From: Acidicapsa ligni
GTDB lineage: Bacteria; Acidobacteriota; Terriglobia; Terriglobales; Acidobacteriaceae
DNA length: 64,000 bases
Direction of reading: 5' to 3'
NCBI RefSeq assembly: GCF_025685655.1
Contig: NZ_JAGSYG010000007.1
Coordinates: 186,001-250,000 of the forward strand
The stretch's first letter is position 1. The number at the start of each line of letters is the position of its first letter. Both the position numbers and the translations under genes were made by a program. The notes beneath the pieces were generated by a model that was not told the origin of the DNA, made no database searches, and was given only the letters and a program-made list of their open reading frames with translations. Below, piece by piece: positions 23,391 to 46,353 of the stretch.

Positions 23391-24497
23391 ATGAAGAACG
23401 AAGAACTCATCTTTGTCACCGGCGCGACCGGATTTCTGGGCTCGCAGCTGGTTCACGAACTGCTGGACCGCCATCCACAGGCTACTCTGGCGCTGCTGAT
23501 TCGAGATAGATCCAATCAATCCGCCCAGCAACGCGCCGATTTGATCGTGTCTCCAGCCGATCGCAAACGCATACAGGTGTACTCAGGGGATGTAGGCCTG
23601 CCCAACTGCGGCCTCGACGCCTGTGCCAGGCAATATCTTTCCTCTGAGACAACCCGCGTGATTCACTGCGCCGCCACCGTCCGCTTTGATCACTCGCTGG
23701 AGGAGGCCCGCCGTATCAACGTCGAGGGCACCCAGCGCATACTGGATTTCGCAGCCACAGCGCCACAACTTCGCAGCCTCGCCTACGTGGGTACAGCCTA
23801 TGTCGCCGGCGAACGCACCGGCCCAGTCCTCGAAAGTGAATTGATATTAGGGCAAAGCTATCGCAACACCTACGAACAAACCAAAGCAGAGGCCGAGGCG
23901 CTCGTGCGCTCACATCTTGGCTCCATCCCGGGAGTCATCCTGCGCCCCAGCATCATCGTGGGCGACTCCCAGACCGGCGCGACCTCCAGCTTCAAAATGA
24001 TGTACTGGCCTTTAAAGATTTACTCCCGCCGCCTCTGGCGCACAATACCCGGCTTTCCCGACGCAGTATTGGATATCGTGCCGGTCGACTACGTTGCCAA
24101 CGCAGTCGCACTACTGGCCTTTGACGAGGCAGCGTTGGGCAGCACAGTTCATCTCTGCGCCGGACCACGCGGCAGCGCCACCATCCAGCAAATCGCCCAG
24201 CGTGCATCGGAATATTTCCATGTGCCCGAGCCGCGCTACGTCGATCCAAAGTTCTTCTTCGCTGCACTGCGACCGCTGCTGTATCTATCCCTATGGGGAC
24301 GCAAGCGCAAAGTGCTCCGCGATGGCCGCGCCTATCGCGATTACTTCTCCATGCGCATGCAGTTCGATACCACCAATGCCGAGCGCCTGTTGGCGCCATC
24401 TGGACTACGGCCGCCACCCGTCCTTGAGTATCTCAATAGCCTGTTCGATTACTGCGTAGCCAGCGAATGGGGACGCAAGACGGTCTCTCCTCAATGA
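23391..24497 (+). CDS. NAD(P)-dependent acyl/thioester reductase-like extended SDR
   Basis: This 368-residue protein has the nucleotide-binding TGATGFLG (residues 10-17) and the SDR catalytic Tyr161-x3-Lys165 (YEQTK). The layout is of the NAD_binding_4 or thioester-reductase type (RVIHCAATVRFDHSLEEARRIN, then GVILRPSIIVGDSQTG). Such proteins reduce acyl-CoA or carrier-bound acyl groups to aldehydes or alcohols, or reduce ketones as OleD does. The ATG at 23391 has no ideal Shine-Dalgarno site; the closest GAGG is inside a terminator-like hairpin. The stop overlaps the start of the ligase gene (ATGA), so the two products probably act in one pathway. Confidence 0.8.
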   Translation: MKNEELIFVTGATGFLGSQLVHELLDRHPQATLALLIRDRSNQSAQQRADLIVSPADRKRIQVYSGDVGLPNCGLDACARQYLSSETTRVIHCAATVRFDHSLEEARRINVEGTQRILDFAATAPQLRSLAYVGTAYVAGERTGPVLESELILGQSYRNTYEQTKAEAEALVRSHLGSIPGVILRPSIIVGDSQTGATSSFKMMYWPLKIYSRRLWRTIPGFPDAVLDIVPVDYVANAVALLAFDEAALGSTVHLCAGPRGSATIQQIAQRASEYFHVPEPRYVDPKFFFAALRPLLYLSLWGRKRKVLRDGRAYRDYFSMRMQFDTTNAERLLAPSGLRPPPVLEYLNSLFDYCVASEWGRKTVSPQ

Positions 24498-26119
24498 ATA
24501 TCCAGGAGCAGCTTCGGCTCTCACGCGATCCCAACGTCACCGTCGCCAATCTCGTCGACGAGCTGCTGCAACACAAAGGAGATTGCGAAGTCGGCGTCGA
24601 GGAGGATGGTCCCTGGCGCCTCGCCGAGCTGCACGCAGAGGTTTGCCTGATCGACGCCTTTCTTCGTCGCACAATCGGACTCCGCCCCGGTCAACCCGTA
24701 GCCATTTATCGCACCAATGATCGGCGGTGTTTCCGCTGGTTCCTGGCGATTGTCCGCGCTGGAGGCATCGCAGTTCCCTTGAACCCGATGCTTTCGCTGT
24801 CCGAGGTACGGCGAATTCTGGCCAGCAGCGGCACAGAGATTCTGGTGACCGACAAGGCAGTCTTTGAACACAGCATCAAGCAGCGTTCCGAGTTGAATGT
24901 CCGCACCTGGATTCAAGCTGACAGCGAAGAGGCAGAGCTTCTCGACGGATTCATACGCATTGTCGATGGCGATACCCAATCTCCGCTCCCTCCCGTAGTC
25001 GTCGATCCATCCGCGACAGTAGCCGTATTCCACACCTCCGGCACCAGCGGATTTCCCAAAGGCGCCGCGCTTTCAAGCAATGCCCTGCTCGGTGCGCGCG
25101 CGTCCACAGTGTTTGCCGGACTATTTCTGGGGCCAAAAGATCTCGCTCTCATAGCCCTGCCCTGGTCACATATCATGGCCGTCAGCATCGCACTCTATGG
25201 CCTCATGGCTGGCATCCGCGGCTGCTTCCTCGATCGCTTTGACGTAACCCGCGCAATAGACCTTGTCGAACGCTTCGGCATCACCGCTTTCGTCGGTGTG
25301 CCCGCAATGTTTGCGCGACTGGTCAACAGCAATCCTGAACCTGCAAGGCTCGCCAGTGTGCGCGTCTGGCTCTCGGCCAGCGATCACCTACCTTCTCAAG
25401 TAAGGCAGCGCCTGCGACAATATGGCGCTCTGATCCGACTGCCGGGTGGCCGGCGCATTCCGCCCGTACTCATCAACGGCTACGGCATGGTAGAACTCGG
25501 CGGCCTCGCCATGATGGGCATCGAGTTTTCGCTTCTCCCCGGCAGTGGAGATCTCTGTTTCCCCGTGCCGCCTTTTCACATCCGCGTCGCCGACGAGAAC
25601 GGAAACGCTCTGCCCGCTGGCTCTACCGGCGAATGTCAGATTCGCCGTCGCGGCCTCATTCCGCATTATTGGAGCGATGAGAAAAAGCACGATGATTCAG
25701 CCACAAATGACCTGCTTACCTCCGATGGCTGGCTGCGCACCGGAGACCTCGCAAAGCGAAATCGCCTCGGCATGATCCGCCTCGTTGGCCGCATGAAAGA
25801 CGTGATCAAGTCCGGCGGTTATTCCGTCTATGTCCGTGAACTGGAAGAGACCCTGGTAACCCATCCCGCAGTAGCGCGAGCCGCCGCTTTCGGCCTGCCG
25901 CATCAAGAGAAAGGCGAGATTCCCGCCGCAGCAGTCGAACTGAACAACAACTCCACCGCAAGCGAAAGCGACCTGCTCGCCTGGTGCCGGGAGAATCTCG
26001 CAGCCTATAAATCCCCACGCAAAATCTGGATTCTTCCAGCAGGCGACTTACCGCAAAATCACACCGGCAAGATACTTCGACGAGTCCTGCAGGAGCGGTT
26101 TTCACAAGAGATCCATTAA
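24494..26119 (+). CDS. AMP-forming acyl-CoA synthetase / ligase family enzyme
   Basis: This 541-residue adenylate-forming enzyme has the P-loop TSGTSGFPKG (181-190), the GYGMVELGG adenine-site motif, TGDLAKRNRLGMIRLVGRMKD in the hinge region and the catalytic Lys in TGKILRR close to the C-terminus. It should activate a carboxylic acid with ATP and pass it to CoA or a carrier. ATG 24494 overlaps the reductase stop codon; the longer TTG/ATG frame from 24467 is less likely. No carrier protein gene is visible nearby. Possible roles are fatty-acid activation for the adjacent reductase, or a beta-lactone synthetase-like (OleC) activity; the sequence does not decide. Confidence 0.85.
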   Translation: MNIQEQLRLSRDPNVTVANLVDELLQHKGDCEVGVEEDGPWRLAELHAEVCLIDAFLRRTIGLRPGQPVAIYRTNDRRCFRWFLAIVRAGGIAVPLNPMLSLSEVRRILASSGTEILVTDKAVFEHSIKQRSELNVRTWIQADSEEAELLDGFIRIVDGDTQSPLPPVVVDPSATVAVFHTSGTSGFPKGAALSSNALLGARASTVFAGLFLGPKDLALIALPWSHIMAVSIALYGLMAGIRGCFLDRFDVTRAIDLVERFGITAFVGVPAMFARLVNSNPEPARLASVRVWLSASDHLPSQVRQRLRQYGALIRLPGGRRIPPVLINGYGMVELGGLAMMGIEFSLLPGSGDLCFPVPPFHIRVADENGNALPAGSTGECQIRRRGLIPHYWSDEKKHDDSATNDLLTSDGWLRTGDLAKRNRLGMIRLVGRMKDVIKSGGYSVYVRELEETLVTHPAVARAAAFGLPHQEKGEIPAAAVELNNNSTASESDLLAWCRENLAAYKSPRKIWILPAGDLPQNHTGKILRRVLQERFSQEIH

Positions 26120-28512: not shown

Positions 28513-29529
28513 GTGAATCGCGCTATCGCTCTTTTGCTTGTCATGCTCGCCGCGATCATTGCATTGATTACGTGGCAACGGAGTGCGCAGCCACACCTCG
28601 CGATCTCCCCTCGAGAACTCACCCTGCCCGCGGATGGCGCTCCACATCGCGCTGCGCAAATAAGGCTGTCACAAAACAAACAGATCGAAAGTAATAACAT
28701 CACGATCACTGGACACGCCCCTGCGCGCATCCTTCCCGCCACCAGGGACGCCGCCGCTGCCTTGGAGATTCAGTCCCCGGTCAACCCGGCAACCGAGCGG
28801 TTCATCCTCAAGTACCGCGGTGCTCCCGTTACCCTGGTAGCGCATTTCATCTCCGATAACAACGATCGCTTCAGCGACGGCACTCCCGACTTTCTCCGTC
28901 TACACACCACAGAAGATCGTTCAGCCTTCCGCCGCTGGTTCACAACAATGGCCGATATCACCGCCACACTTCCAACCGAACACCTGCCGCACGAGATTGA
29001 TGACTGCGCCGCCCTGCTGCGATGGTGCTACCGCAACGCCCTGCACTCTCACGATGAAACATGGCTGGCAACCATGCCCATGGAAACTCTGCCGCCCATC
29101 CCATCCATTACGCAGTATGCGTACCCCTTCACACCACTGGGCTCAAACCTTTTCCGCGTAACGTCTGGAGCCTATGCTTCGGACGACGTTTCCAATGGCA
29201 GTTTTACGCAGTTCGCCGACGCCAAAACCCTTTGGCAGCACAACACTTTCTTCGTCACCAGGGATGTGCGTACAGCTCAGCCAGGAGACCTGCTTTTTTA
29301 TCGCCAGTTAGAACAAAACTCCCCGTTTCACTCAATGATTCTGACCGGCCCTACTCACAATTGGGTGGTCTATCACACCGGACCAATCGGTACCGGACCA
29401 GGAGAGATACGGCGAGTTACATTGAACGATTTACTTCATCATCCGGATACACGTTGGCGGCCAGTTCCGGAAAATAATAACTTCCTGGGTGTCTACCGTT
29501 GGAATATACTTCGCGAGGAGCCTCGATGA
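28513..29529 (+). CDS. DUF1175 (YfaT-like) protein, NlpC/P60-like fold
   Basis: This 338-residue protein starts at GTG with an N-terminal membrane anchor or signal (IALLLVMLAAIIALITW). The C-terminal two thirds carry DDCAALLRWCYRNAL with Cys165, AQPGDLLFYRQ, FHSMILTG with His273 and WVVYHTGP with His288. That is the order of catalytic elements in NlpC/P60 peptidases, suggesting a peptidoglycan endopeptidase or amidase; the catalytic reading is inference. In E. coli the DUF1175 gene yfaT neighbours the alpha-2-macroglobulin yfaS, and the same pairing is seen here: its stop overlaps the macroglobulin start (ATGA). Confidence 0.82.
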   Translation: MNRAIALLLVMLAAIIALITWQRSAQPHLAISPRELTLPADGAPHRAAQIRLSQNKQIESNNITITGHAPARILPATRDAAAALEIQSPVNPATERFILKYRGAPVTLVAHFISDNNDRFSDGTPDFLRLHTTEDRSAFRRWFTTMADITATLPTEHLPHEIDDCAALLRWCYRNALHSHDETWLATMPMETLPPIPSITQYAYPFTPLGSNLFRVTSGAYASDDVSNGSFTQFADAKTLWQHNTFFVTRDVRTAQPGDLLFYRQLEQNSPFHSMILTGPTHNWVVYHTGPIGTGPGEIRRVTLNDLLHHPDTRWRPVPENNNFLGVYRWNILREEPR

Positions 29530-32500
29530 GACTGCGCGCTGTTTCGTTCCTTGCCTTGCTTCTCTTTGCCCATCCTGCCGCCCATGCACAGGACCGTGCA
29601 GTCTCGTTCAATCTGAGCACCAGCAAGACATTTGCTCCCGGCGAGCAACCTAAAATCCATCTCTACACGCACAACGTAGATGCCCTCGAATTTCGCGTCT
29701 ATCGTATAAATGATCCCGTAAAGTTCATGGAGAATCTGCGGGAGCTGCATTCCTTCGGGCCAGAAGCAGGCCTGCTCGGCAAAGAACAAATCGACAAACG
29801 GACCTTGCTGGAGAAGTTCCACGACTGGAAAGCAGGTCTCTGGAGCAGCATTCGCAATTTCTTCCGGCAACAGTTTTCGCAGGAAGCACGCAGCGCGCTG
29901 CGTGATCATCAAAGCGCAATCACCCATCACAGCCGCATCGTTAGCGAAGCCGAGTTCGCACAGATTCCCATCCTCAACCAGGGGCAACTCGTGTCGCGCT
30001 GGCGACAACTCGTACCGTCTACGTACATCTCCGATGCGAATGACCTAGCCGTACCCAAGTTGTCCGCCGGACTATATCTCCTGGAGGCGACCGACGGACG
30101 ATACAAGGCCTACACGCTGCTGATGATGACGCAGATGGCCCTCGTAACGCGGACCACCTCCGGCAATGTCGTAGCCTATGTTGTCGATCGCACAACCGGT
30201 CAGCCAATCCCCAACGTAAAGGTGGACGCAGGTTTTGGTCAGAAGGCAGTAGCCACAGCCACCACCGATGCCAAGGGAATAGTTCAACTTGCCATTCCCA
30301 TTGATAAGTCTTCGCCGGATAACTTCTGGGTGGTTGCAGGCAAAGGAAATGAATTCGCAGCTTCCACCCCAGGTAGCTGGGCACTGAACCTCTCTTCAAG
30401 CGGCAAGTTCGCAGGCTATGTCTTCACCGAACGACCGGTTTATCGACCAACTCATACCGTTCATTGGAAGGGGATACTCCGCGAACACAACGGCAATGCA
30501 TTGGCGCTCCCAAAAGCAGGCAGCGTTCACGTAATCATCTCCGATGGGGAGAGCAAAAAGGTCTTTGATCGGCAGATGCCTCTTCCCGCAACCGGCGAAA
30601 TTACCGGCGACTTCGATCTTCCCAAAGATGCCTCGCTGGGCTACTACTCTCTACAAATAGGCGATAAGCAGGAAGATCTCATCTCCAGCGGCTTTCATGT
30701 CGAGGACTACCGCAAGCCCGAGTATCGCGTACAGGTAACAGCAGCGCAGAAACGAGTACTTGAAGGCGCAACAATGCCGGTCACGATCGATTCTCGCTAC
30801 TTCTTCGGCGAGCCTGTGGCCAATGCAAAGGTTAAGTATCGCGTGTATCACAGCCGTCATTACTGGTGGGGAGAGCAGGATGACGATAGCTCCGGCGGCG
30901 ATGAAAGCGCCGATGCAGATGCAGAAAATCAATCCACAGAAAATCAAACCGGTTACGCCGGTGACGAGGAAGCCGAGCAGACCGGCAAGCTGAATGCAAA
31001 CGGAATCCTCGTCATCCAGGTTCCAACCCGCGTCGACTCCCAGGGCCACGCACATCCAGATCTGGACTACACAGTAGAAGCTGGCGTAACCGACGCAGCC
31101 AACCGCGAGATCACAGGCCGCGGCCGCTTCCTCGCAACCTACGGAACATTCCGCGTGAATATCGAACCTGTAAGTTACGCGGTACGCCCCGGCGAACAGG
31201 CAAAATTCCGCGTGACCACGGTGGACTATGACAATAAACCTGTCAGCACCCGCGTCCACGTTCAGCTTGTCTTCCGACATTATGAAAGCGGAAAGACAGA
31301 AACCACGCTCGGCGCAACAGTCGATGTAACCACCGACGCAACAGGCAAAGCCACAGGCGAAGTACCCATCGGCCAGCCAAAGTACAGTAGCGCCAGCCTT
31401 CAGGTAACTGCCGCTGCAGTTGTGCCAGGAACACGCGACCCGGTAAACGATAGTTATCTGTGGATCATGGGCGCAGGAGAGACAAGCTGGGATAGCAGCA
31501 CCCAGGCCACGCAGATCGTGGCCGACAAGAAAACCTACGCCCCCGGCGATACCGCACATCTAAGCATCGTCTCGCAGACAGGCGGCTTCTATGCACTGGT
31601 AATCGCACAGGGCTACACAACACAAATGCGCGAAGTGATGCATACCGACGGCAACACGCTTTCGTTCGATCTGCCCATTACTTCCGACTCGCAGCCCAAC
31701 ATCTCGGTGAATGCATACTTCATCAAGGACAACACTCTTTACCAGGCCAGCAAAATTCTGAAAGTCCCGCCCGTTCAGCAGCAACTGAATGTAGAGATCA
31801 CCCCAGGAAAAGAAGTTTTTCAACCGCAGCAGAGCGCTACTTATGATGTCGTCACGCGGGATTATGCAAGCAAACCCGTCAGTGCAGATTTAAGTTTCGG
31901 TGTAGTGGATGAAGCTATCTACTCTCTCTATCCAGACAGTAGTGGAGATATGGTCGCAAGGCTGTATCCACAGCGCTTCGCTGAGTCTCAGGTTGACTCT
32001 TCCCTCGATTACTACTTCAGTGGTGAGGCTGGCAGCAAGTCGCCGTTATTGGCCATGCGCGACGCCCGCTATCGTCCCCAACTCGCTCAGGTCAAGCCGG
32101 GCAATGAGCAAAAGCCGCGCATCCGCAAGGCCTTCCCCGACACAGCATTCTGGGCGCCTATCGTCCATACAGACGCAAGCGGACACGCCCATGTGTCACT
32201 CACCTTTCCAGATTCGCTCACGACCTGGCGAGCCACAGTACACGCTATAACGCCGGATTCGAAAGCCGGCTCCGCCATCAGCCGTGTTCTCGTGCGCAAG
32301 AATGTGCTGGTACGCATGGGCACACCGCGCTTCATGTTAAAAGGCGACGAAATCACGCTGCCAGTGATCGTGCATAACTACCTCGACACAGCAAAACAAG
32401 CAACCGTCTCGCTCAAAGTCGAAGGGCTCGATACACTCAGCGGAGCACAAAAGAGCGTCACAATCCCCAGCAAAGGCGAGGCCACCGTATTGTGGCGCTT

Positions 32501-34256
32501 GCGAGCCACACAAGTCGGCAAAGCAAACCTTACCGCCTCCGCCATAACAGATACCGAGTCTGACGCGCTTGAACTAACCTTCCCCGTCGAACCGGCGGGC
32601 GTCGCGCAAACCCTGTCGCAGAGCGGAGCGATCGCACAAAACGCTTCCCAGGTCACAGCAAACATAACCTATCCATCCAACACCGATCCGGCTGCGCACA
32701 CTCTCCATATCGAGGCAAGTTCGTCTATCGCTGGCTCGCTCTTCTCTGCTCTGAACTATCTCACGTCCTATCCCTACGGCTGCACCGAACAAACGATGTC
32801 GAGTTATCTGCCAAACGTAATTGTGGCCGAGACACTCAGTCGCCTCAAGGTAAATCGCCATATCGACGACGTGGATCTGCACGCCAAGATGCAAGCCGGC
32901 CTCGAACGTCTGAAGGATTATCAACATGACGACGGAGGCTGGGGCTGGTGGAAGGAAGACGATAGCCGCGTCTACATGACCGCATACGTCGTCAGTGGTA
33001 TCGGTCAGGGAGCCCAGTATGTCCCACTCTCAAACGACCAACAAGCAATGCTCAACCGCGGCATGGGTTATCTGCGCAGTGCTCTTGATCAGCATTCAAG
33101 CATGCGCCCCGACCTGCGAGCTGCGGTAGTTTACGCCCTTGCGGAAGCAGGCGACAAACGGCTTGGCACCGCCCTCGACGCTCAGTGGGCACAGCGCAAA
33201 GATCTGCAACCAGAGGCACTGGCCATGACCGGGCTCGCGATGTTGCAGATGCGCGATAAACGCGCCACAGAGATTGCCAATCTGCTCGCATCACAGGCCA
33301 TACATCAAGGCAATCTCGTCTCGTGGAAAGGATCTTATCTCCCCCTGCTTGATTACGACTACAACAACGATGCCGAAGCAACCGCATACGCAGTACGCCT
33401 GCTGGCGAAGGTTGATCCGAGCAACCCATTGTTGGGCGGCGCTGCGCAAGGTCTGATGTTAGCGCGCAACGGTAACGTCTGGTGGGATTCCACCGAACAG
33501 ACCGCAATGGTGCTCTTCGGACTAACCGACTATCTCGCCGCGTCGCAGGAGTTACAGTCAGACTTCACAGTAGACGTGCTCGTGAATGGCCACTCCGCCG
33601 GGCAACGACATTTCACCGCTGAAGATGCACTCAACGGCGCTTCTCTCACAATCGATCTCGACGCCGCACATCTACAGACCGCGGCAAACAATGTACAGAT
33701 AGTCCGAACCAGCGGCAGTGGACGCATATATTGGTCTGTCCGCGGCGGCTACTACTCCACAGAAAAGAAAAACTACCAGGTCGGCACCATGTCTCTGAAT
33801 TTGACCCGCGATTACTACAAGCTGCAACCTATGCAGAAAGATGACAAAATACTGTATTCATTGCAGCCCATGAATGGCACAGCCCAGGTAGGAGACGTGC
33901 TCGCCGTACACGAAGCAATCAACGGCACGCCCGCCCGTTATCTCCTACTCGAAGATCCAATCCCCGCAGGCACAGAATTCGTTCAGAGTGAAGATAGCTA
34001 TCCCATCGATCACAAACCCGGTGGATGGTATGACTGGTTTACAAGACGAGAATTCCACGATGATCACGCCGCCTTCTTCGCCAGTGAATTCACCGGAAGA
34101 CAAGAGATTTTCTACCTGATCAGAGTAGTGAATCCTGGCACATTTCAAATCAGTCCCGCGCGCGTGGAGCCTATGTATCAGCAAGGCGTGCAAGCTACCA
34201 GCGATGCTCTGCAGCTACAGGTACCTGCACCAGCCCTGCCAGGAGGTCCGCAATGA
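29526..34256 (+). CDS. Bacterial alpha-2-macroglobulin family protein with CTEQ thioester motif
   Basis: This 1576-residue exported protein has a signal peptide (LRAVSFLALLLFAHPAAHAQ, no lipobox). MG-type beta domains follow (YVVDRTTGQPIPNVKVDAG; GYVFTERPVYRPTHTVHWKGIL), then a central FGVVDEAIYSL and the macroglobulin region AFWAPIVHTDASGHAHVSLTFPDSLTTWR. The thioester motif is C1086-TEQ in YPYGCTEQTMSSYLP, inside an alpha/alpha toroid (DGGWGWWK). It should trap proteases that enter the periplasm. The start has GAGGAG five bases upstream and overlaps the DUF1175 stop. An acidic low-complexity insert rich in Asp/Glu lies near residue 460. The thioester together with a DUF1175 partner mixes features of the two E. 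coli types. Confidence 0.94.
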   Translation: MRLRAVSFLALLLFAHPAAHAQDRAVSFNLSTSKTFAPGEQPKIHLYTHNVDALEFRVYRINDPVKFMENLRELHSFGPEAGLLGKEQIDKRTLLEKFHDWKAGLWSSIRNFFRQQFSQEARSALRDHQSAITHHSRIVSEAEFAQIPILNQGQLVSRWRQLVPSTYISDANDLAVPKLSAGLYLLEATDGRYKAYTLLMMTQMALVTRTTSGNVVAYVVDRTTGQPIPNVKVDAGFGQKAVATATTDAKGIVQLAIPIDKSSPDNFWVVAGKGNEFAASTPGSWALNLSSSGKFAGYVFTERPVYRPTHTVHWKGILREHNGNALALPKAGSVHVIISDGESKKVFDRQMPLPATGEITGDFDLPKDASLGYYSLQIGDKQEDLISSGFHVEDYRKPEYRVQVTAAQKRVLEGATMPVTIDSRYFFGEPVANAKVKYRVYHSRHYWWGEQDDDSSGGDESADADAENQSTENQTGYAGDEEAEQTGKLNANGILVIQVPTRVDSQGHAHPDLDYTVEAGVTDAANREITGRGRFLATYGTFRVNIEPVSYAVRPGEQAKFRVTTVDYDNKPVSTRVHVQLVFRHYESGKTETTLGATVDVTTDATGKATGEVPIGQPKYSSASLQVTAAAVVPGTRDPVNDSYLWIMGAGETSWDSSTQATQIVADKKTYAPGDTAHLSIVSQTGGFYALVIAQGYTTQMREVMHTDGNTLSFDLPITSDSQPNISVNAYFIKDNTLYQASKILKVPPVQQQLNVEITPGKEVFQPQQSATYDVVTRDYASKPVSADLSFGVVDEAIYSLYPDSSGDMVARLYPQRFAESQVDSSLDYYFSGEAGSKSPLLAMRDARYRPQLAQVKPGNEQKPRIRKAFPDTAFWAPIVHTDASGHAHVSLTFPDSLTTWRATVHAITPDSKAGSAISRVLVRKNVLVRMGTPRFMLKGDEITLPVIVHNYLDTAKQATVSLKVEGLDTLSGAQKSVTIPSKGEATVLWRLRATQVGKANLTASAITDTESDALELTFPVEPAGVAQTLSQSGAIAQNASQVTANITYPSNTDPAAHTLHIEASSSIAGSLFSALNYLTSYPYGCTEQTMSSYLPNVIVAETLSRLKVNRHIDDVDLHAKMQAGLERLKDYQHDDGGWGWWKEDDSRVYMTAYVVSGIGQGAQYVPLSNDQQAMLNRGMGYLRSALDQHSSMRPDLRAAVVYALAEAGDKRLGTALDAQWAQRKDLQPEALAMTGLAMLQMRDKRATEIANLLASQAIHQGNLVSWKGSYLPLLDYDYNNDAEATAYAVRLLAKVDPSNPLLGGAAQGLMLARNGNVWWDSTEQTAMVLFGLTDYLAASQELQSDFTVDVLVNGHSAGQRHFTAEDALNGASLTIDLDAAHLQTAANNVQIVRTSGSGRIYWSVRGGYYSTEKKNYQVGTMSLNLTRDYYKLQPMQKDDKILYSLQPMNGTAQVGDVLAVHEAINGTPARYLLLEDPIPAGTEFVQSEDSYPIDHKPGGWYDWFTRREFHDDHAAFFASEFTGRQEIFYLIRVVNPGTFQISPARVEPMYQQGVQATSDALQLQVPAPALPGGPQ

Positions 34257-35053
34257 CATCACACTCAACCTCGCCATTGCGTGGCGCTCTGGCTCTGCTC
34301 AACGTTCGTTTCATTTTGCAGCAGATCATCCTCGCACTGCTGGTCTTCGGACTTTCCGTTCTCTGGCTGCGCATCCCGGATGCAAGTGCAATCGATGTAA
34401 TTGGCTCGGTGTTGCTTGCTCTCATCGTGCTCGCAGTAGCAGGCATAGGGGAGTCTTCCCTCATCCTCCGTCTCTCCGGCCAACATCACACATTGAGCAA
34501 ACTCCTGCGCGGTGCTCTGTTGCTATTCATTGGAGCCGCACTCTGGCTTGGCTGGAGTGTACTGCTTCAACACTTGCATGGCGATGACTACCTTCGCGCC
34601 GGTTATCTGAATTCGCGATTTCCGCACTCGCTACGCAACCTGTTTTCCTTTGAACATATCCTGCTCTGCTTCGGATGGCTATGGGCAACACTGCGGTGGA
34701 TTATGGCTGGCATAATTGCCGTCTTCGTGTTCACCCTGACTGCGAGTATCCGGCCGCTTCGCGCCATAGTCCGCGCACTCAGCTCCCTCTCTTATTGGAG
34801 CGTACTTATCTTAGGAACGGCCAGCGCGATTGTCATCACAGGCTTGCTGCTAGAGTGGACGCCGGGCCAGGGCTTGACTATCGAGATGCTAAGTCTGGTG
34901 CTTCGTCTAAGCGTAGCAATGATCCTGGATGCCACCATTGCATGTTTCCTGCTTGCGATCCTGGCCGTATGCGAGCGGCAGACCGATGCGCTTTACCTCA
35001 CACCTGCCGGAACTCCAGACGAAAGCCATCCGCGTACAGAAGAAACTCCATAG
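34253..35053 (+). CDS. Multi-pass membrane protein of unknown function
   Basis: This 266-residue protein has about six or seven hydrophobic segments, for example ILALLVFGLSVLWL, IGSVLLALIVLAVAGIGE, LLFIGAALWLGWSVLL, GIIAVFVFTLTASI and WSVLILGTASAIVITGLL. I recognise no family motif. The start overlaps the macroglobulin stop (ATGA) with AGGAGG seven bases upstream, so it is translationally coupled and probably serves the same envelope function. The last 61 bases overlap the 3' end of the convergent SpoIID-like gene. Confidence 0.75.
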   Translation: MTSHSTSPLRGALALLNVRFILQQIILALLVFGLSVLWLRIPDASAIDVIGSVLLALIVLAVAGIGESSLILRLSGQHHTLSKLLRGALLLFIGAALWLGWSVLLQHLHGDDYLRAGYLNSRFPHSLRNLFSFEHILLCFGWLWATLRWIMAGIIAVFVFTLTASIRPLRAIVRALSSLSYWSVLILGTASAIVITGLLLEWTPGQGLTIEMLSLVLRLSVAMILDATIACFLLAILAVCERQTDALYLTPAGTPDESHPRTEETP

Positions 35054-36705
35054 CGTATAAGCAATGCATGCACCCGAGAAGCAGCAGCAAGATGCGCGCT
35101 CTCGCTGGCCCTCAACGAATCCGTATGCTGCAACGCGCTTTCGATCTCGTCGATAGACATCGTATGTGCGCTTTCAAAATGTTCCCCTGCCAACACCTCA
35201 ACCAGGCCCTCCCGTAACCAAAGCGGTGTGCGCTCGTTGGACTCAGACTCCACAAGAACATGAAGCATCTCGTGCATCAGCGTCTCCGAAGCAACTCGTC
35301 CACGCGCATGCAAAATTGCCTCCGGCTGTAAAACAATCGTGTCCCCTCGCGTACTCGCAAGTGCCCATCCAGGCTGCGTCGTAAGCTGACGAAACACCTC
35401 CGTCGTCGACGCAAAAATAATCTCAGGATGAATCTCTTGTTGAGGTGGAAACCGCTTCTCTGCATCACCCCACATCCGCTCGATCTCTGCCTGTTTCTCT
35501 GCAGAAAACACATGCGTAGCGCGTAGAGCAAGTGGACCGACGCGCGTCTCCTGCCACCCCATGTCCTCCGGCAAGATGCGTACCGTCGTCCCCGAAAAAT
35601 AGAAGGCAAGAATCTCTCGCGCATTCTTCCCCTCAGAAGCCATCTCCGTCGCGCCCACCTGGCAAAGACCAACTCCATGACCATGGCCACGGCCATCAAA
35701 GACAAGCTCGCCGTTGCGAACCCCAAGTTCGTATGCATCGCTACGAACACGATTCCATCCCATCGTTCGGCCAATCCCAAAGCGCAATGCACTTGCCGAA
35801 ACCATCGATGTCGCCCCATCCGCGCCAGTGAAAAGTACGCGCAACGCGCGCCGCGACGGACTTCGCTCCGCAACATGCGCTGTCACGATCCTTGCAGGCA
35901 AATGCCATCCTTCTTTTTGTGCGACCTCCAGCAGCGTACCCAGCGGAACATCCGCATGCCACGCTGCCGTATCACGCCGTCCGCAATATGGATCTCCGTG
36001 ACTGCGCAGATAAGGCGTACCACGAAGTTTGGGCCAGAGGATTCCAGCATCTTCTGTTAAACCGCCACAGTTCTGGCTAAAGAAAACCTCCACCTGATGC
36101 GGACCAAACCACAATGTCTCCCCTGCAGTTGCCCGCACTGCATCTTCGATAGCCAAAGACGCCGATCCAGGCAGCATCGCCTGACACGCAGTGCTATCGC
36201 ATAGATCCGCGCTCAGGTGACCATGTTGAGCAACGAAGTGGCTTCCATTCAACGCATACGTCCGCGCAAGAATAGCCAACGCACGCAAGGATTGCCCAGG
36301 TTCGTCATGTGCAGCCTCCGCGTTCAATACCGCAGCCACATAACGCTCGCTCGGCAGCGTAAGCACAACATCAACATTCTGCCTCCGAGCCTGTAGATGC
36401 CAAAGTCCCGTAGCGGTACGCATCTCACCTGTCGCATCGTCAGTAACACGCAGGGATCCACCAGCAAAGATCTCCTTAGGCGCAATAACATGAAGCGGCG
36501 CAGTCAACGGAGTGTGTATACATTTAGCGCATAGCGACGTCCATGCATGCGCGCCAATCGGCGTCACTGTCACAGTACGAAGACTTTGCGTGGAGAAAAG
36601 CGCCACCGATATATCCCGTCCACCGCTGCCGTCGCTCGTTGCTGCAACCGCTCCCAGACTCGCGAATAACATCACAAGCCAGGCAGCCCAACAGCAGCCC
36701 CTCAT
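34993..36705 (-). CDS. SpoIID/LytB-domain protein with C-terminal gluzincin peptidase domain
   Basis: This 570-residue exported protein has a signal (WAAWLVMLFASLGAVAA). The SpoIID domain has LPSERYVAAVLNAEA (Glu130, the likely catalytic Glu), AILARTYAL, EVFFSQNCGGLTED and GRGHGHGVGLCQVGATEMA. SpoIID proteins cut denuded peptidoglycan glycan strands or enhance amidases. A C-terminal domain has H478-EML-H482, then WLREGLVEVLAG with the expected third Glu, as in zinc peptidases of the MA clan. The fusion is unusual. The start overlaps the stop of the upstream transpeptidase gene by four bases, so the two are coupled. Its 3' end overlaps the facing membrane-protein gene by 61 bases. Confidence 0.88.
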   Translation of the reverse strand: MRGCCWAAWLVMLFASLGAVAATSDGSGGRDISVALFSTQSLRTVTVTPIGAHAWTSLCAKCIHTPLTAPLHVIAPKEIFAGGSLRVTDDATGEMRTATGLWHLQARRQNVDVVLTLPSERYVAAVLNAEAAHDEPGQSLRALAILARTYALNGSHFVAQHGHLSADLCDSTACQAMLPGSASLAIEDAVRATAGETLWFGPHQVEVFFSQNCGGLTEDAGILWPKLRGTPYLRSHGDPYCGRRDTAAWHADVPLGTLLEVAQKEGWHLPARIVTAHVAERSPSRRALRVLFTGADGATSMVSASALRFGIGRTMGWNRVRSDAYELGVRNGELVFDGRGHGHGVGLCQVGATEMASEGKNAREILAFYFSGTTVRILPEDMGWQETRVGPLALRATHVFSAEKQAEIERMWGDAEKRFPPQQEIHPEIIFASTTEVFRQLTTQPGWALASTRGDTIVLQPEAILHARGRVASETLMHEMLHVLVESESNERTPLWLREGLVEVLAGEHFESAHTMSIDEIESALQHTDSLRASESAHLAAASRVHALLIRYGVSSVRGWLSSGVPAGVR

Positions 36706-37544
36706 CGCGTTTGCCCTTCAGACGTAATATCTCGGAAGAATTTCTGCGCCAACCGTGCAGCAGTTCCACCATCGCCATGCGGCACATACACTACAAGCAC
36801 ATATCGACCAGGTATCGCGCCGACAAACCATCCATGAGTCCAGGCCTCTCCAGCATCACTCGCAGTCCCCGTCTTGCCGAGAATATCTACACCTTTAACA
36901 GCCGCCGGATCAGCCATGCCATAACTCACCGAATCCCTCAATCCACGCGCGATAACTCCATCCCGCGGCATTCTGCTTAATAGGTCACGATACGCTCGCC
37001 CCATTTCCAACGGAGACACAGACACTCCGTCAAGCCCCAGAACAGCCAGTTGGCGTTGCTCCACATTCACCAGATTCATAGACGCATGCTGCAAATGAAA
37101 CTCATGGAATGCCTCTTCTAATGCTGGTCCGGAAAAACGGCGCGCCATCTCTGCAAACCATGTATTACATGACTCAGCCAGTGCGCTCTCAGCAGTGAAT
37201 ACAGGATGGTCCGCCGGATGCGTGCATGGCAATGCCCTGCCCCCCACATGCAGATCACGTCGGCAGTAAACCTCCATCTCCGGACGTACAATACCATGCT
37301 CCAGCGCATACTCCAGCAGCAGCGGCTTGATCGCCGAGCCAGGCGATCCGCGGCGTTGTTTTCCCGCGGAAGCAAGCACCGCTCCCGTCCGCGGATCAAG
37401 CACTACTGCCGAGCCTTGCGTTCCTTGCAGAGCACGGAAAAGCGCGCGTTCTACCTCCTGCGCATGCGCCTGAATGAGGCTCGCAAAGAACAGCACAACT
37501 CCCAGCAACACCTTTATTTTCCTGCTAATCAAGCTACCTCGCAC
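36702..37544 (-). CDS. Stand-alone penicillin-binding transpeptidase domain protein
   Basis: This 280-residue exported protein has a signal peptide (VLLGVVLFFASLIQAHA) and all three penicillin-binding motifs: S70-AI-K73, S125-C-N127 and K224-T-G226. It is much shorter than class A or B PBPs; no glycosyltransferase or dimerisation domain is present. VVLDPRTGAVLASAGK is the typical entry to a transpeptidase domain. It could be a peptidoglycan D,D-transpeptidase or carboxypeptidase, or a BlaR-sensor/class D-like beta-lactam binder. Its stop overlaps the SpoIID gene start. The macroglobulin on the facing strand recalls the E. coli pairing of yfhM with pbpC. Confidence 0.87.
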   Translation of the reverse strand: MRGSLISRKIKVLLGVVLFFASLIQAHAQEVERALFRALQGTQGSAVVLDPRTGAVLASAGKQRRGSPGSAIKPLLLEYALEHGIVRPEMEVYCRRDLHVGGRALPCTHPADHPVFTAESALAESCNTWFAEMARRFSGPALEEAFHEFHLQHASMNLVNVEQRQLAVLGLDGVSVSPLEMGRAYRDLLSRMPRDGVIARGLRDSVSYGMADPAAVKGVDILGKTGTASDAGEAWTHGWFVGAIPGRYVLVVYVPHGDGGTAARLAQKFFRDITSEGQTR

Positions 37545-42890: not shown

Positions 42891-45800
42891 CTATCGAACG
42901 CCACTCACCACGAAGCTGTAGTTTCCTGCAGGTAATACGTAGCCCGCCTTTGAATCTCGCGAAACAGCCTGCACCAGTTTGCTCGAAGCCAGCGCCTGTC
43001 CGTCCAACTTGTACTCGCCAGCCTCTGCATCACTCAACGGCAACCAACCCGAAGCATTCGCAGGAATCGTCAGTTGCCAATGCGCAGTCCCATCCTTCAC
43101 CGACCACGCAGAATGTATCTCACCGTACGGAGATGGATAGCTGAAATCGATGCTGCCCAGCTGCGCATCAAAAGCCGGATGCAGATACACAGTATGAAAT
43201 CCAGCATCCATCGGCGTAGCATCCACACCCGCGGCGTAACGATAGATCCAATCCGCAACCGCGCCATACGCATAGTGGTTGTACGAATTCATGCTTGGAT
43301 CATCCTTCATCTTGTCGCCATTCCAACGCTCCCACATCGTCGTCGCGCCATGATCTACAAGATATCCCCACGAAGGATAAGTCGTATTCAATAACAAGTG
43401 ATATGCCAGATCGCGATGTCCAGTCTCAGTTAGAACAGCCAATAGATACGGCGTTCCCAGGAATCCCGTTCCCAGCAATCCATGATTGGCCTCAATCTTA
43501 TCGACAAGCTTTTGTGCAACGGCACCGCGCAGATTCTCAGGAACAAGATTCACCTGCAACGCAAGCACATAGCCCGTTTGTGTATCGCCGGTTTTAGCCT
43601 TCGCATCTGGATTGTTCTCCGCATGAGACGGCTCTTGATGGTCCGCACCTTCAACGAACCCGTCCGCGTGTACAAACTCCTTCTCGAAAGAAGCCTTGAT
43701 CTCCTCAAACAGCGCCGCATACTTGGCTTCGTCCTGTGTCTTCCCCAGCGCATGAGCCATCTGCTTCATGAGCGTAATGTCATAGGCCCAGGAAGCCGTC
43801 GCCACCAACGGATAATACGTCGGTCCCTCAGGCGAAAGCCAGTCACCAAATCCGATGCCCGCATTCTTCTTCCATAGGTGATCGGGATTGGAAACCTCAA
43901 TAGCAGCGAGGTATTTCGTCATCGCGTTCCAGTTCTGCTGCACCACCGTCGTATCACCGTTCTGCATCCACGAAGTCCACGGAATGATCACGCCTGCATC
44001 ACTCCAGCCCGCACCAGAATCAGACGAAGTTGTGCTGATACCCGGTGCGTAAATTCCAAACATCGCACCCTCCGCCTGCGTTCCGGAGGCGCTTCCCACC
44101 TGCGTCCCACGCATATCGGCAGAATACTTCCTTGAGAACGCCGCCAGGTCCATGTTGTAAGTCGCCGTACGCCAAAAGACCTGGGCATCCGCCATCCAAC
44201 CCAACCGCTCATCGCGTTGCGGACAATCCGTCGGCACACCGACAAAGTTCGATCGTTGTCCCCAGAGAATATTGCTCCACAAGCTATTGATCATCCCGCT
44301 GCCCGTCTTCAATTGAGCAGTGAATGCAGCATCCGTATGAAAGACAACACCCGTCACAGTACTTAGACTTGGCTTCCTCACCACGCCCGTCAACTCCAGA
44401 TAACGGAAGCCATGAAAAGTAAACTGAGGTTGAAACTCTTCCTCGCCTTTGCCCGCAAGAATGAAGTGATCTGTAGAAAGCGCCGTCCTTAAATTATCCG
44501 TATACAGCGTTCCATCCGCATTCAAAATTTCACCGGTGCGCACTTGAACATCCGTGCCTGCTGGTCCCTTCAAATGCAACTTCTCCACACCGGAAAAATT
44601 CTGTCCCATGTCGTAAATAAACACGCCAGGTCTCGGCTCTGTCAGAGCTTTTGGCGTCAGCGTACGCTCCACGCGAATCGGCTGAAAGTCCTGTCCATCA
44701 ATCGCAATCCGTGGTCCTGCATGCACCTCTACCGGCTTCCACTTCGACGCATCAAAATGCGCAGCATTCCATCCCGTCTGAATCAGCCGCGCATCCTGCG
44801 TCTCGCCGTCATAAATCTCCGCCTTCAAAATTGACGAAGCATCGGCCTTCCAATTCGCATCGCTCACAATCCAATCCACACTTCCGTCTGCGTATTGAAT
44901 GCGCAACTGCACCATCAGCGAAGGCGGATCCACCCCATAAACATTCGGCTGTTGAAACCACTCCAATGGCGTCGAATACCACCCCGGAGCCACAAGCGCC
45001 GCAAGCGCATTCCGGCCCTGCGCCACCTCTTTCGTCACATCATAAGTCTGATACTTCAACCGCAATCTGTAATCAGTCCATCCCGGCGCAAGCACATCAT
45101 CCGCAGTCCGCTTGCCATTCAAAAAAACCTCATACGCTCCCAATGCAGTCGCATACAACCGCGCCGAAGCGATCTGCTTACGCACAACAAACTCATGCCG
45201 CAAACTCTTCACTGTCTGCGCAGGCCACGGATTTCCAGGAGATCCTGAATCAACACCGTTCGCTGTATATCGAATCACCAGCGGCTTCCACGATGCATCT
45301 TCATCGCCACCGCGAGTCCATCCCTCCGCCGGATGAACCGATGTCTTCCATGCCGAGTCCATTCCAGTCGCAAAGCTCGCCGTCGAACCATCTGTAAGCT
45401 CCGCCACCAGCGTAGCGTTCATCATCGGCGTATCGCGACCCGCAAATCCATTCGAATTCTCACCATAATGCGTAGTCTCGATCGCGAGAAGATTCGCACC
45501 GCTCTTCACCTGCGATGTCACCTCAATCTGCACATACTTCTTCCACGGAAACTGCTTATACGGCGGCAACGAAGCACCCTTTGCCACCTGCGCTCCATTC
45601 ACCCACGCGGATGCCACATCCTGCCCCGTCACGAACAACACCGCGCGGCGCACAGACGCATTCAGCGTAAACGGCAATCGGTATCCAATCTTCTGTTCAG
45701 GCGCCTTGCCATCCAGCGCAGCTCCATCCGGACTCGTCACCCACGCAGCCTTCGCTTCGCGTACCGCAGCCTCTTCCCATGTTTCGTAACCGATCCATTG

Positions 45801-46262
45801 CGCATGCCAATTCTGCTGATCGAGCAACCCCGTTTCCCACCAGCTCGTCTCGCTCACCGGATACGCATCGCCATCCTTATCCCATGCCATCACCCGCCAG
45901 AAGTACCGCGTACTCGGCATCAAAGCAGGGCCCGCAAACGTCACGTTCACAGACTGTCCTGAATGAATTCTTCCACTATCCCAAACATCGGCCTTGTTCG
46001 AAACGAGCAACTCTCCACGCGTCGCCACTTGAATCGAATACGAGGTCTGCATTGCTCCACGCGTGACATCTCGCAACACCCACGAAAAATGCGGCGCGTG
46101 ATCGTCCAGTCCCAATGGCGTGACCAGATCATCCACGCGCAGTTTCGTTGGAGATTCTTTCTCATTTGAAGCAGCCGAAGCAGTCGACGAAACACCCAAT
46201 AAAACGGCACTCAACGCAACAGCGGTCACAACAGAATCAATCCAACGGGATGACGACGACAT
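42891..46262 (-). CDS. Alpha-L-rhamnosidase, glycoside hydrolase family 78
   Basis: This 1123-residue exported enzyme has a signal peptide (VVTAVALSAVLLGVSSTASA). The N-terminal domain has LRVDDLVTPLGLDDHAPHFSW, followed by DxR-type beta domains. The catalytic (alpha/alpha)6 barrel carries GVPTDCPQRDERLGWMADAQVFWRTA, where the Glu of RDERLGW is the expected general acid. C-terminal MWERWNGD and FNSYNHYAYGAVADW-like motifs complete the family pattern. It releases L-rhamnose from glycosides or pectin side chains. ATG 46262 has GAGG eight bases upstream; the frame extends to a TTG at 46286. It lies downstream of RhaI in the same direction, so extracellular release and intracellular use of rhamnose are linked. 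Confidence 0.95.
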   Translation of the reverse strand: MSSSSRWIDSVVTAVALSAVLLGVSSTASAASNEKESPTKLRVDDLVTPLGLDDHAPHFSWVLRDVTRGAMQTSYSIQVATRGELLVSNKADVWDSGRIHSGQSVNVTFAGPALMPSTRYFWRVMAWDKDGDAYPVSETSWWETGLLDQQNWHAQWIGYETWEEAAVREAKAAWVTSPDGAALDGKAPEQKIGYRLPFTLNASVRRAVLFVTGQDVASAWVNGAQVAKGASLPPYKQFPWKKYVQIEVTSQVKSGANLLAIETTHYGENSNGFAGRDTPMMNATLVAELTDGSTASFATGMDSAWKTSVHPAEGWTRGGDEDASWKPLVIRYTANGVDSGSPGNPWPAQTVKSLRHEFVVRKQIASARLYATALGAYEVFLNGKRTADDVLAPGWTDYRLRLKYQTYDVTKEVAQGRNALAALVAPGWYSTPLEWFQQPNVYGVDPPSLMVQLRIQYADGSVDWIVSDANWKADASSILKAEIYDGETQDARLIQTGWNAAHFDASKWKPVEVHAGPRIAIDGQDFQPIRVERTLTPKALTEPRPGVFIYDMGQNFSGVEKLHLKGPAGTDVQVRTGEILNADGTLYTDNLRTALSTDHFILAGKGEEEFQPQFTFHGFRYLELTGVVRKPSLSTVTGVVFHTDAAFTAQLKTGSGMINSLWSNILWGQRSNFVGVPTDCPQRDERLGWMADAQVFWRTATYNMDLAAFSRKYSADMRGTQVGSASGTQAEGAMFGIYAPGISTTSSDSGAGWSDAGVIIPWTSWMQNGDTTVVQQNWNAMTKYLAAIEVSNPDHLWKKNAGIGFGDWLSPEGPTYYPLVATASWAYDITLMKQMAHALGKTQDEAKYAALFEEIKASFEKEFVHADGFVEGADHQEPSHAENNPDAKAKTGDTQTGYVLALQVNLVPENLRGAVAQKLVDKIEANHGLLGTGFLGTPYLLAVLTETGHRDLAYHLLLNTTYPSWGYLVDHGATTMWERWNGDKMKDDPSMNSYNHYAYGAVADWIYRYAAGVDATPMDAGFHTVYLHPAFDAQLGSIDFSYPSPYGEIHSAWSVKDGTAHWQLTIPANASGWLPLSDAEAGEYKLDGQALASSKLVQAVSRDSKAGYVLPAGNYSFVVSGVR

Positions 46263-46353
46263 TCCACTTACCTCAATTCCAAACAATCAACGTGTACAGC
46301 GGATAGTATGTAACCCTATTTCCAATATCAACCGAAGCGCACCTTCAGAGGAG

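Follow-up and report, generated by a model that had tools for sequence, protein, structure and literature searches.

The window analysed here is a stretch of 64,000 nucleotides from Acidicapsa ligni (contig NZ_JAGSYG010000007.1, positions 186,001 to 250,000), and the system in question is a locus of five genes within it, organized as two convergent sets, each translationally coupled (Table 1). The forward set runs from a DUF1175 gene through an alpha-2-macroglobulin (A2M) gene to a membrane protein gene, and the reverse set from a stand-alone penicillin-binding transpeptidase (PBP) to a SpoIID-type enzyme with an HExxH metallopeptidase part. PBP, SpoIID and HExxH are referred to below as the trio. 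The five genes, their coupling and the 61-base overlap had all been described in the original prediction, and they were recovered from Pfam and NCBIfam matches and open reading frames (ORFs). Every junction within a set is an ATGA overlap; the start of the A2M gene was placed at 29526, and not at the mechanical 29499, because the ATG there overlaps the DUF1175 stop. In L024 and L026, from two further genera of the family, the convergent overlap has the same length. Facing genes overlap in 9 of the 21 loci of a wider scan (see below) where both were seen facing, so the convergent overlap is not generally conserved.

Table 1. Features of the five-gene locus, with positions in the 64-kb window.
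Feature	Position	Strand	Remarks
DUF1175 / MagC-YfaT family protein (NlpC/P60-like)	28513..29529	+	Pfam DUF1175 E=4e-72, residues 113-334
Alpha-2-macroglobulin (A2M)	29526..34256	+	1576 aa; Pfam MG2, A2M_BRD (bait region), A2M, TED, bMG10
CTEQ thioester codons of A2M	32781..32792	+	residues 1086-1089; coordinates computed by hand
Conserved membrane protein	34253..35053	+	several hydrophobic stretches, judged by eye
Convergent 3' overlap	34993..35053	both	exactly 61 bases
SpoIID-type enzyme fused to predicted gluzincin-type metallopeptidase	34993..36705	-	570 aa; SpoIID ~27-382, peptidase ~377-570
HExxH of the SpoIID protein	35260..35274	-	HEMLH, residues 478-482; coordinates computed by hand
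Stand-alone penicillin-binding transpeptidase (PBP)	36702..37544	-	280 aa; Pfam Transpeptidase 1e-24

The DUF1175 protein carries an N-terminal membrane anchor (by eye) and about 110 extra residues, and its family profile matched the MagC structure (PDB 7bk8) at 1.3e-63. The Cys-His-His set ascribed to it earlier was found in the alignment, with the Cys and one His invariant and the second His nearly so (11 rows). PMC10318531, with reference to MagC, describes DUF1175 as an NlpC/P60 relative that binds the wall and is inactive. The macroglobulin holds the expected CTEQ in the context YPYGCTEQ, and was the sole A2M found in the genome by the query used. A signal peptide was recognized by eye; the first 30 residues contain no Cys, hence no lipobox was seen. 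The membrane protein matched no Pfam or NCBIfam family, and a profile search placed relatives of it close to the end of the A2M in 34 of 50 wider-scan loci. None of the five locus proteins matched the PADLOC anti-phage defence models at E ≤ 0.01.

The SpoIID protein was matched by Pfam SpoIID (4e-14) and TIGR02669 (SpoIID_LytB, 2e-43), and its AlphaFold2 model (alignment of 23 sequences) reached a predicted local distance difference test (pLDDT) value of 89.0. Residues 27-382 aligned with the Clostridioides difficile SpoIID structure 5i1t (Z 27.8, root-mean-square deviation [rmsd] 2.4, 267 aligned), and the spore lytic transglycosylase SleC likewise aligned to the model (Z 14.4, 166 aligned). 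The SpoIID fold, a catalytic-type Glu and the Cys/His residues were all found; we take the conserved Glu to be catalytic and the Cys and His to be zinc residues. SpoIID of Firmicutes is a glycan-cleaving enzyme of engulfment, with which the window protein shares the fold and the conserved Glu, Cys and His motifs, whereas its fusion to a gluzincin-type part and its linkage to an A2M set it apart.

The protease part of this protein, also anticipated, is supported by the model: residues 377-570 aligned best with the peptidase domains of collagenases (Z 14.5 to 11, rmsd 2.9-3.7) and next with aminopeptidases and LTA4H (Z ~10), sequence identity to collagenases and aminopeptidases being ~10-14%. 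The catalytic domains of all three are gluzincins. Shared with collagenase and M1/LTA4H are the fold and an HExxH with a downstream Glu. The columns of H478, E479, H482 and E499 are invariant in 23 rows, and Glu 499 is likely the third metal ligand of the HExxH site. No Pfam peptidase family matched this part above the cut-off; from the model it is predicted to be a gluzincin-type peptidase.

In the PBP, the motifs SxxK (S70), SCN (125-127) and KTG (224-226) are invariant in 21 rows, and a signal peptide or anchor was recognized by eye. Its AlphaFold2 model (alignment of 21 sequences, pLDDT 94.8) retrieved the transpeptidase domains of PBP3/FtsI and PBP2 in the fold search. NCBIfam models ranked accordingly (pbp2_mrdA 3e-21, PbpC 2.5e-6), placing the protein nearer to PBP2/FtsI than to PbpC. 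Pfam and NCBIfam gave a transpeptidase match only and none to a glycosyltransferase.

Conservation was assessed in a sample of 199 Acidobacteriota genomes, a locus being a 20-kb stretch. DUF1175 was present in 21 genomes, A2M adjoined it in every one of these, and all three trio domains lay inside the same locus in 19 of the 21 (profiles from the wider set; the PBP of L032 lies just outside that stretch and was seen in L046). By chance, ~0.23 of the 21 genomes would have a SpoIID match in a given 20-kb stretch, a rough comparison, since this value comes from SpoIID matches per genome and the 19 from more sensitive profiles. The wider scan covered GTDB genomes with the DUF1175 alignment as the query, and the best 80 of 539 confirmed loci were analysed. 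These overlap partly with the sampled genomes (e.g., L058=G197, L062=G075, L103=G171), and the two sets of counts were never summed. A2M was found in 76 of the best 80 loci, 50 of which extend at least 4.5 kb beyond it. Within these 50 loci, PBP was detected in 43, SpoIID in 43, HExxH in 45 and all three domains in 41; the other 30 comprise four without A2M (L065, L083 and L088, near contig ends, and L114) and 26 with less than 4.5 kb. The PBP and SpoIID genes accompany the macroglobulin, as had been proposed, and the two convergent sets do not occur independently in most genomes (19/21; 41/50).

In Myxococcota, DUF1175 was found in 87 genomes, 75 of which show a divergent type only. Twenty loci, hand-picked and not random, were compared (11 of the full-length type and nine of the divergent type; a twelfth full-length one, G201, was already counted as L119). 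PBP and SpoIID were both present in 14 of the 20, a PBP-like match only in L158, while L150, L155 and L162 are cut contigs. In loci rich in G+C the gene caller used chooses wrong strands, and the counts were therefore made from six-frame ORFs. The computed associations show DUF1175, A2M and the trio to be a single evolutionary unit in Acidobacteriota and Myxococcota; Spirochaetota and other lineages add further cases. Ten genomes of family f23 had seemed to be without wall enzymes in a single-sequence first pass. That exception was dropped, as profiles from the wider set detected PBP (E 1e-4 to 1e-7) and a HExxH-SpoIID protein in all ten. Several Myxococcota loci also have a protein kinase gene between the A2M end and the PBP (L152:8214-9722, by Pfam; L144:5755-7317 and L119:12761-14410, by BLAST relatives).

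The convergent sets might be chance neighbours, an A2M operon beside an unrelated wall-remodelling operon. They lie on opposite strands, the trio was found away from the A2M in 2 of the 21 genomes (~26 kb away in G054 [L044] and on another contig in G171 [L047]), and L054:9441-11620 is a PBP-SpoIID pair with no profile match to A2M, DUF1175 or HExxH in 20 kb, showing that such a pair also exists independently. The SpoIID domain, however, lies within YfaQ itself (see below), and chance adjacency is largely refuted by the 19 of 21 genomes against ~0.23 expected and by the loci of Blastocatellia and Myxococcota in which the trio follows the A2M directly on the same strand. We regard it as extremely improbable.

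The trio is arranged differently among lineages. A PBP and a SpoIID-HExxH protein, both convergent with the A2M set, are found in the window and in Acidobacteriaceae, Bryobacteraceae and other Terriglobia. A fused PBP-SpoIID-HExxH protein is co-directional in Blastocatellia and Pyrinomonadaceae (directly after the A2M in Blastocatellia) and convergent elsewhere, e.g., in L127, L128, L130-L132 and L029. Family f23 has a PBP and a HExxH-SpoIID protein, and Spirochaetota have three separate genes. Among Myxococcota, all three are separate in L144 and L148, PBP-SpoIID and HExxH are encoded apart in L143, L146, L147 and L149, and a single HExxH-PBP-SpoIID protein follows the A2M in six of the nine divergent loci fetched (L154-L162), its HExxH part being assigned by motif and not by profile. 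The constant membership despite this reshuffling points to a joint function of the trio.

The active sites are also kept. In the PBP set, SxxK and SxN were present in 55/55 and KTG in 53/55 (one of the 55, in L067 and 11 kb from the A2M end, is probably an unrelated PBP); in the SpoIID set, the Glu and both Cys were found in 56/56; HExxH was retained in 57/59 and the downstream Glu in 59/59. The domain alignments comprised 44, 45 and 48 segments passing the length filter, from the 80 loci and 11 earlier ones. In the deeper alignments, the PBP motifs were kept in 9/9 aligned f23 rows and, save one KSG for KTG, in 15 Myxococcota rows; the f23 SpoIID domains keep both Cys and have GHNVG or GHNAG in place of GHGxG. 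Short f23 PBPs (L035:15797-16627 and L039:2971-3885; GSLAK, SCN, KTG) resemble a form midway between the PBP of the window and the degraded N-terminal domain of YfaQ (GSLWK, SCG, KTW).

YfaQ (DUF2300) belongs to an Escherichia coli K-12 gene series in the order yfaA (DUF2138), yfaT (DUF1175), yfaS (annotated as a pseudogene), yfaQ and yfaP (DUF2135). Pfam SpoIID matched YfaQ above the cut-off (7e-6). Two YfaQ sequences (E. coli and Citrobacter, the latter the one YfaQ outside E. coli retrieved in a plasmid search) were compared profile to profile with trio profiles of 80-81 sequences each, from which E. coli, Citrobacter, L048-L057 and L030 had been excluded. YfaQ residues 38-189 matched PBP (probability 93%, score 58.2), residues 301-407 matched SpoIID (97%, 86.7), and residues 502-545 matched HExxH with a score of 26.0, which is weak on its own (7%, E=0.0055). 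The three matches are collinear with the PBP-SpoIID-HExxH order, and the last of them is supported by its position and by HEYLH. Control maxima for PBP, SpoIID and HExxH were 17.8, 22.5 and 19.3 with 32 unrelated proteins and 24.8, 19.2 and 19.3 with 40 shuffles; shallower profiles agreed (40.9, 74.8 and 27.3, with 60 shuffles and six proteins as controls). Both YfaQ sequences retain SxxK and the SpoIID Glu; SxN reads SCG, KTG reads KTW, and the SpoIID Cys and GHGxG motifs are gone.

Gene content points the same way. In loci of Myxococcota and Spirochaetota, the A2M is followed, ahead of PBP-SpoIID-HExxH, by a DUF2135 protein (Pfam above the cut-off in three of four tested), and a profile of seven such proteins, searched against two sequences, matched E. 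coli YfaP at 5e-45. DUF1175, A2M and DUF2135 being common to both, the trio stands where YfaQ is missing; DUF2135 precedes the trio in these loci and follows yfaQ in E. coli. The best reading of YfaQ is a trio that has been fused into one protein and has degenerated, an identification that the sequence comparisons make highly probable. The literature searched, outside which many journals fall, held no earlier statement linking YfaQ/DUF2300 to PBP-SpoIID-HExxH. The DUF2300 Pfam model gave no match above the cut-off in 198 Acidobacteriota and 193 Myxococcota genomes, one match below it in Acidobacteriota, and no match in the window genome; YfaQ patterns matched no stretch in viral contigs. Within YfaQ the model matches two parts, the PBP-like and HExxH regions (L138:8941-10587, L001:4149-5798), which in Citrobacter are residues 82-198 and, apart from these, a C-terminal stretch. 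The model may be a composite of different domains.

The degraded transpeptidase site of YfaQ (SCG, KTW), like the description of DUF1175 as an inactive wall binder (PMC10318531), would suit a system in which the PBP-like domain, DUF1175 and SpoIID read the peptidoglycan state as a wall-damage sensor, with catalysis secondary. The near-invariant catalytic residues in the aligned members from outside Enterobacteria argue against such a role, which we consider decidedly unlikely.

On sequence comparison, the locus is a predicted wall-linked, thioester-bearing relative of the Mag (yfaPQSTA) system. As there, DUF1175 (MagC/YfaT) directly precedes the A2M, the trio matches YfaQ domain by domain (weakly for HExxH), and DUF2135 (YfaP) occurs in the Myxococcota and Spirochaetota relatives. 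The differences are that the window A2M has CTEQ, whereas Citrobacter YfaS has no such motif (PYGGVINT in its place) and MagD is described as lacking it, and that the window has intact wall-enzyme sites, an extra membrane protein and the trio split over two genes that are convergent with the A2M set. DUF2138 (YfaA/MagB) and DUF2135 (YfaP/MagF) were not among the 17 window proteins scanned, and a genome-wide search was not made. YPYxCxEQ was present in 10/10 compared A2Ms from DUF1175 loci outside Enterobacteria, and CxEQ in 62/62 full-length A2Ms among the best 80 scan loci (the stricter YPxxCxEQ in 47/62), which suggests that type II A2Ms may descend from forms with a thioester, similar to that of the window. 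In the Myxococcota locus L151:11157-16468, an A2M without CxEQ adjoins DUF1175 and no PBP, SpoIID or trio was found nearby, possibly an independent loss of thioester and trio.

The original prediction had instead seen the locus as merging two contexts, that of the type I, thioester-bearing yfhM with pbpC and that of the type II yfaS. Thioester and PBP do occur here together with DUF1175, and in E. coli pbpC adjoins yfhM, so that both loci encode a thioester A2M close to a penicillin-binding transpeptidase. PbpC, however, is a 770-aa bifunctional protein unlike the short window PBP, no DUF1175, SpoIID or YfaQ gene is annotated beside yfhM, and the window A2M has no visible lipobox. The A2M scored 133 bits against Citrobacter YfaS and 95 against YfhM (246 and 129 for one Myxococcota A2M), and the PBP-like domain is already part of YfaQ. 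It is YfaQ, within the yfaS operon, that the trio matches, and a fusion of the two contexts is very improbable. The locus breaks a rule that pairs PBP1C with thioester-bearing A2Ms and the Mag partners with those lacking the thioester: the thioester stands here in a Mag context, in several phyla.

According to PMC5764988, MagD traps protease without a thioester, MagA, MagB and MagF bind MagD, and magE deletion gives larger MagD forms; a figure legend there has the 100-kDa form absent when magB and magC are lacking, whereas the text reports no pronounced effect of magC deletion. PMC12663445 reports that deletion of magD makes Pseudomonas aeruginosa more sensitive to VgrG3 and, with limited effect, to Tae1, by a mechanism given as unknown. 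MagE was equated with YfaQ by gene order.

The locus is best explained, with a probability of roughly 0.6, as a thioester-bearing, wall-linked system of Mag type that protects the envelope. P. aeruginosa without magD is more sensitive to two effectors of the type VI secretion system (T6SS) that attack peptidoglycan, and this makes envelope protection likely; taken separately, we rate this role as reasonably probable. The A2M would sit in the periplasm (signal sequences by eye), kept close to wall and inner membrane by the membrane protein and by the DUF1175 protein as a wall binder. An intruding or misplaced protease would cut the bait region, upon which the thioester would couple the intruder covalently, and the gluzincin might process or activate the A2M or clear trapped protein. 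SpoIID, by glycan cleavage, and the transpeptidase, by cross-linking, could edit and reseal peptidoglycan at the same spot, and the cell would be protected from a combined attack of proteases and wall hydrolases, e.g., T6SS effectors. The cutting and resealing after breach proposed at the outset would be in keeping with both the enzymes and the phenotype known for Mag. Enterobacteria would have lost the thioester and most wall-enzyme sites by decay, with scaffold functions and the HExxH motif remaining.

Several points weigh against this explanation, besides the displaced trios and the lone PBP-SpoIID pair given above. One or more trio domains were not found nearby in 9 of the 50 wider-scan loci (L087, L094, L101, L103, L111, L115, L116, L122, L124), some of which showed none of the three. 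Neither PBP nor SpoIID was seen in two of the 20 loci from Myxococcota (L151, L153), a Deinococcales DUF1175 gene (L114:9944-10660) has no A2M in 10 kb on either side, and Meiothermus and Deinococcus loci hold just DUF1175, A2M and HExxH. The match of HExxH to YfaQ is weak taken alone, the YfaQ sequences compared were two, and the step from YfaQ to MagE goes by gene order. PMC5764988 judges MagE to be cytoplasmic and not stably bound to the complex, proposing a role in signal-peptide removal, and PMC12663445 reports no protection by magD against the wall effector TseH. The minimal sets of Meiothermus and Deinococcus were observed on plasmids (L139:8899-14712, L140:2285-8673).

The presence of the HExxH gene near a possible inhibitor in most loci, down to these minimal sets, together with the kept catalytic residues, would also be expected if the A2M mainly restrained the module's own gluzincin and the trio were a machine for growth or morphogenesis, not defence. 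The patchy distribution (21/199 Acidobacteriota) is unlike a growth function, and the mag phenotype is resistance to attack; we hold self-control of this kind to be quite unlikely. A complement-like cascade is a bolder reading, which we consider unlikely. In it, the gluzincin would serve as a dedicated convertase and, once the PBP-like, SpoIID and DUF1175 parts sensed wall damage, would be released to cut the A2M bait; the thioester would tag the intruder or the damaged wall, and the transpeptidase and SpoIID would reseal the wall. MagE/YfaQ would then be a decayed descendant whose HExxH site lies behind the altered MagD processing on magE deletion.

From this locus, partners of a bacterial complement-like system gain a testable identity, YfaQ (DUF2300) being a probable decayed transpeptidase-SpoIID-metallopeptidase and MagE the same, if the gene order holds true. 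Elsewhere in the window, a fatty acyl-CoA reductase-like gene (NAD_binding_4) is followed by an overlapping AMP-binding ligase gene at 23391-26119, and an alpha-L-rhamnosidase gene, matched by five rhamnosidase domain families, lies at 42891-46286.

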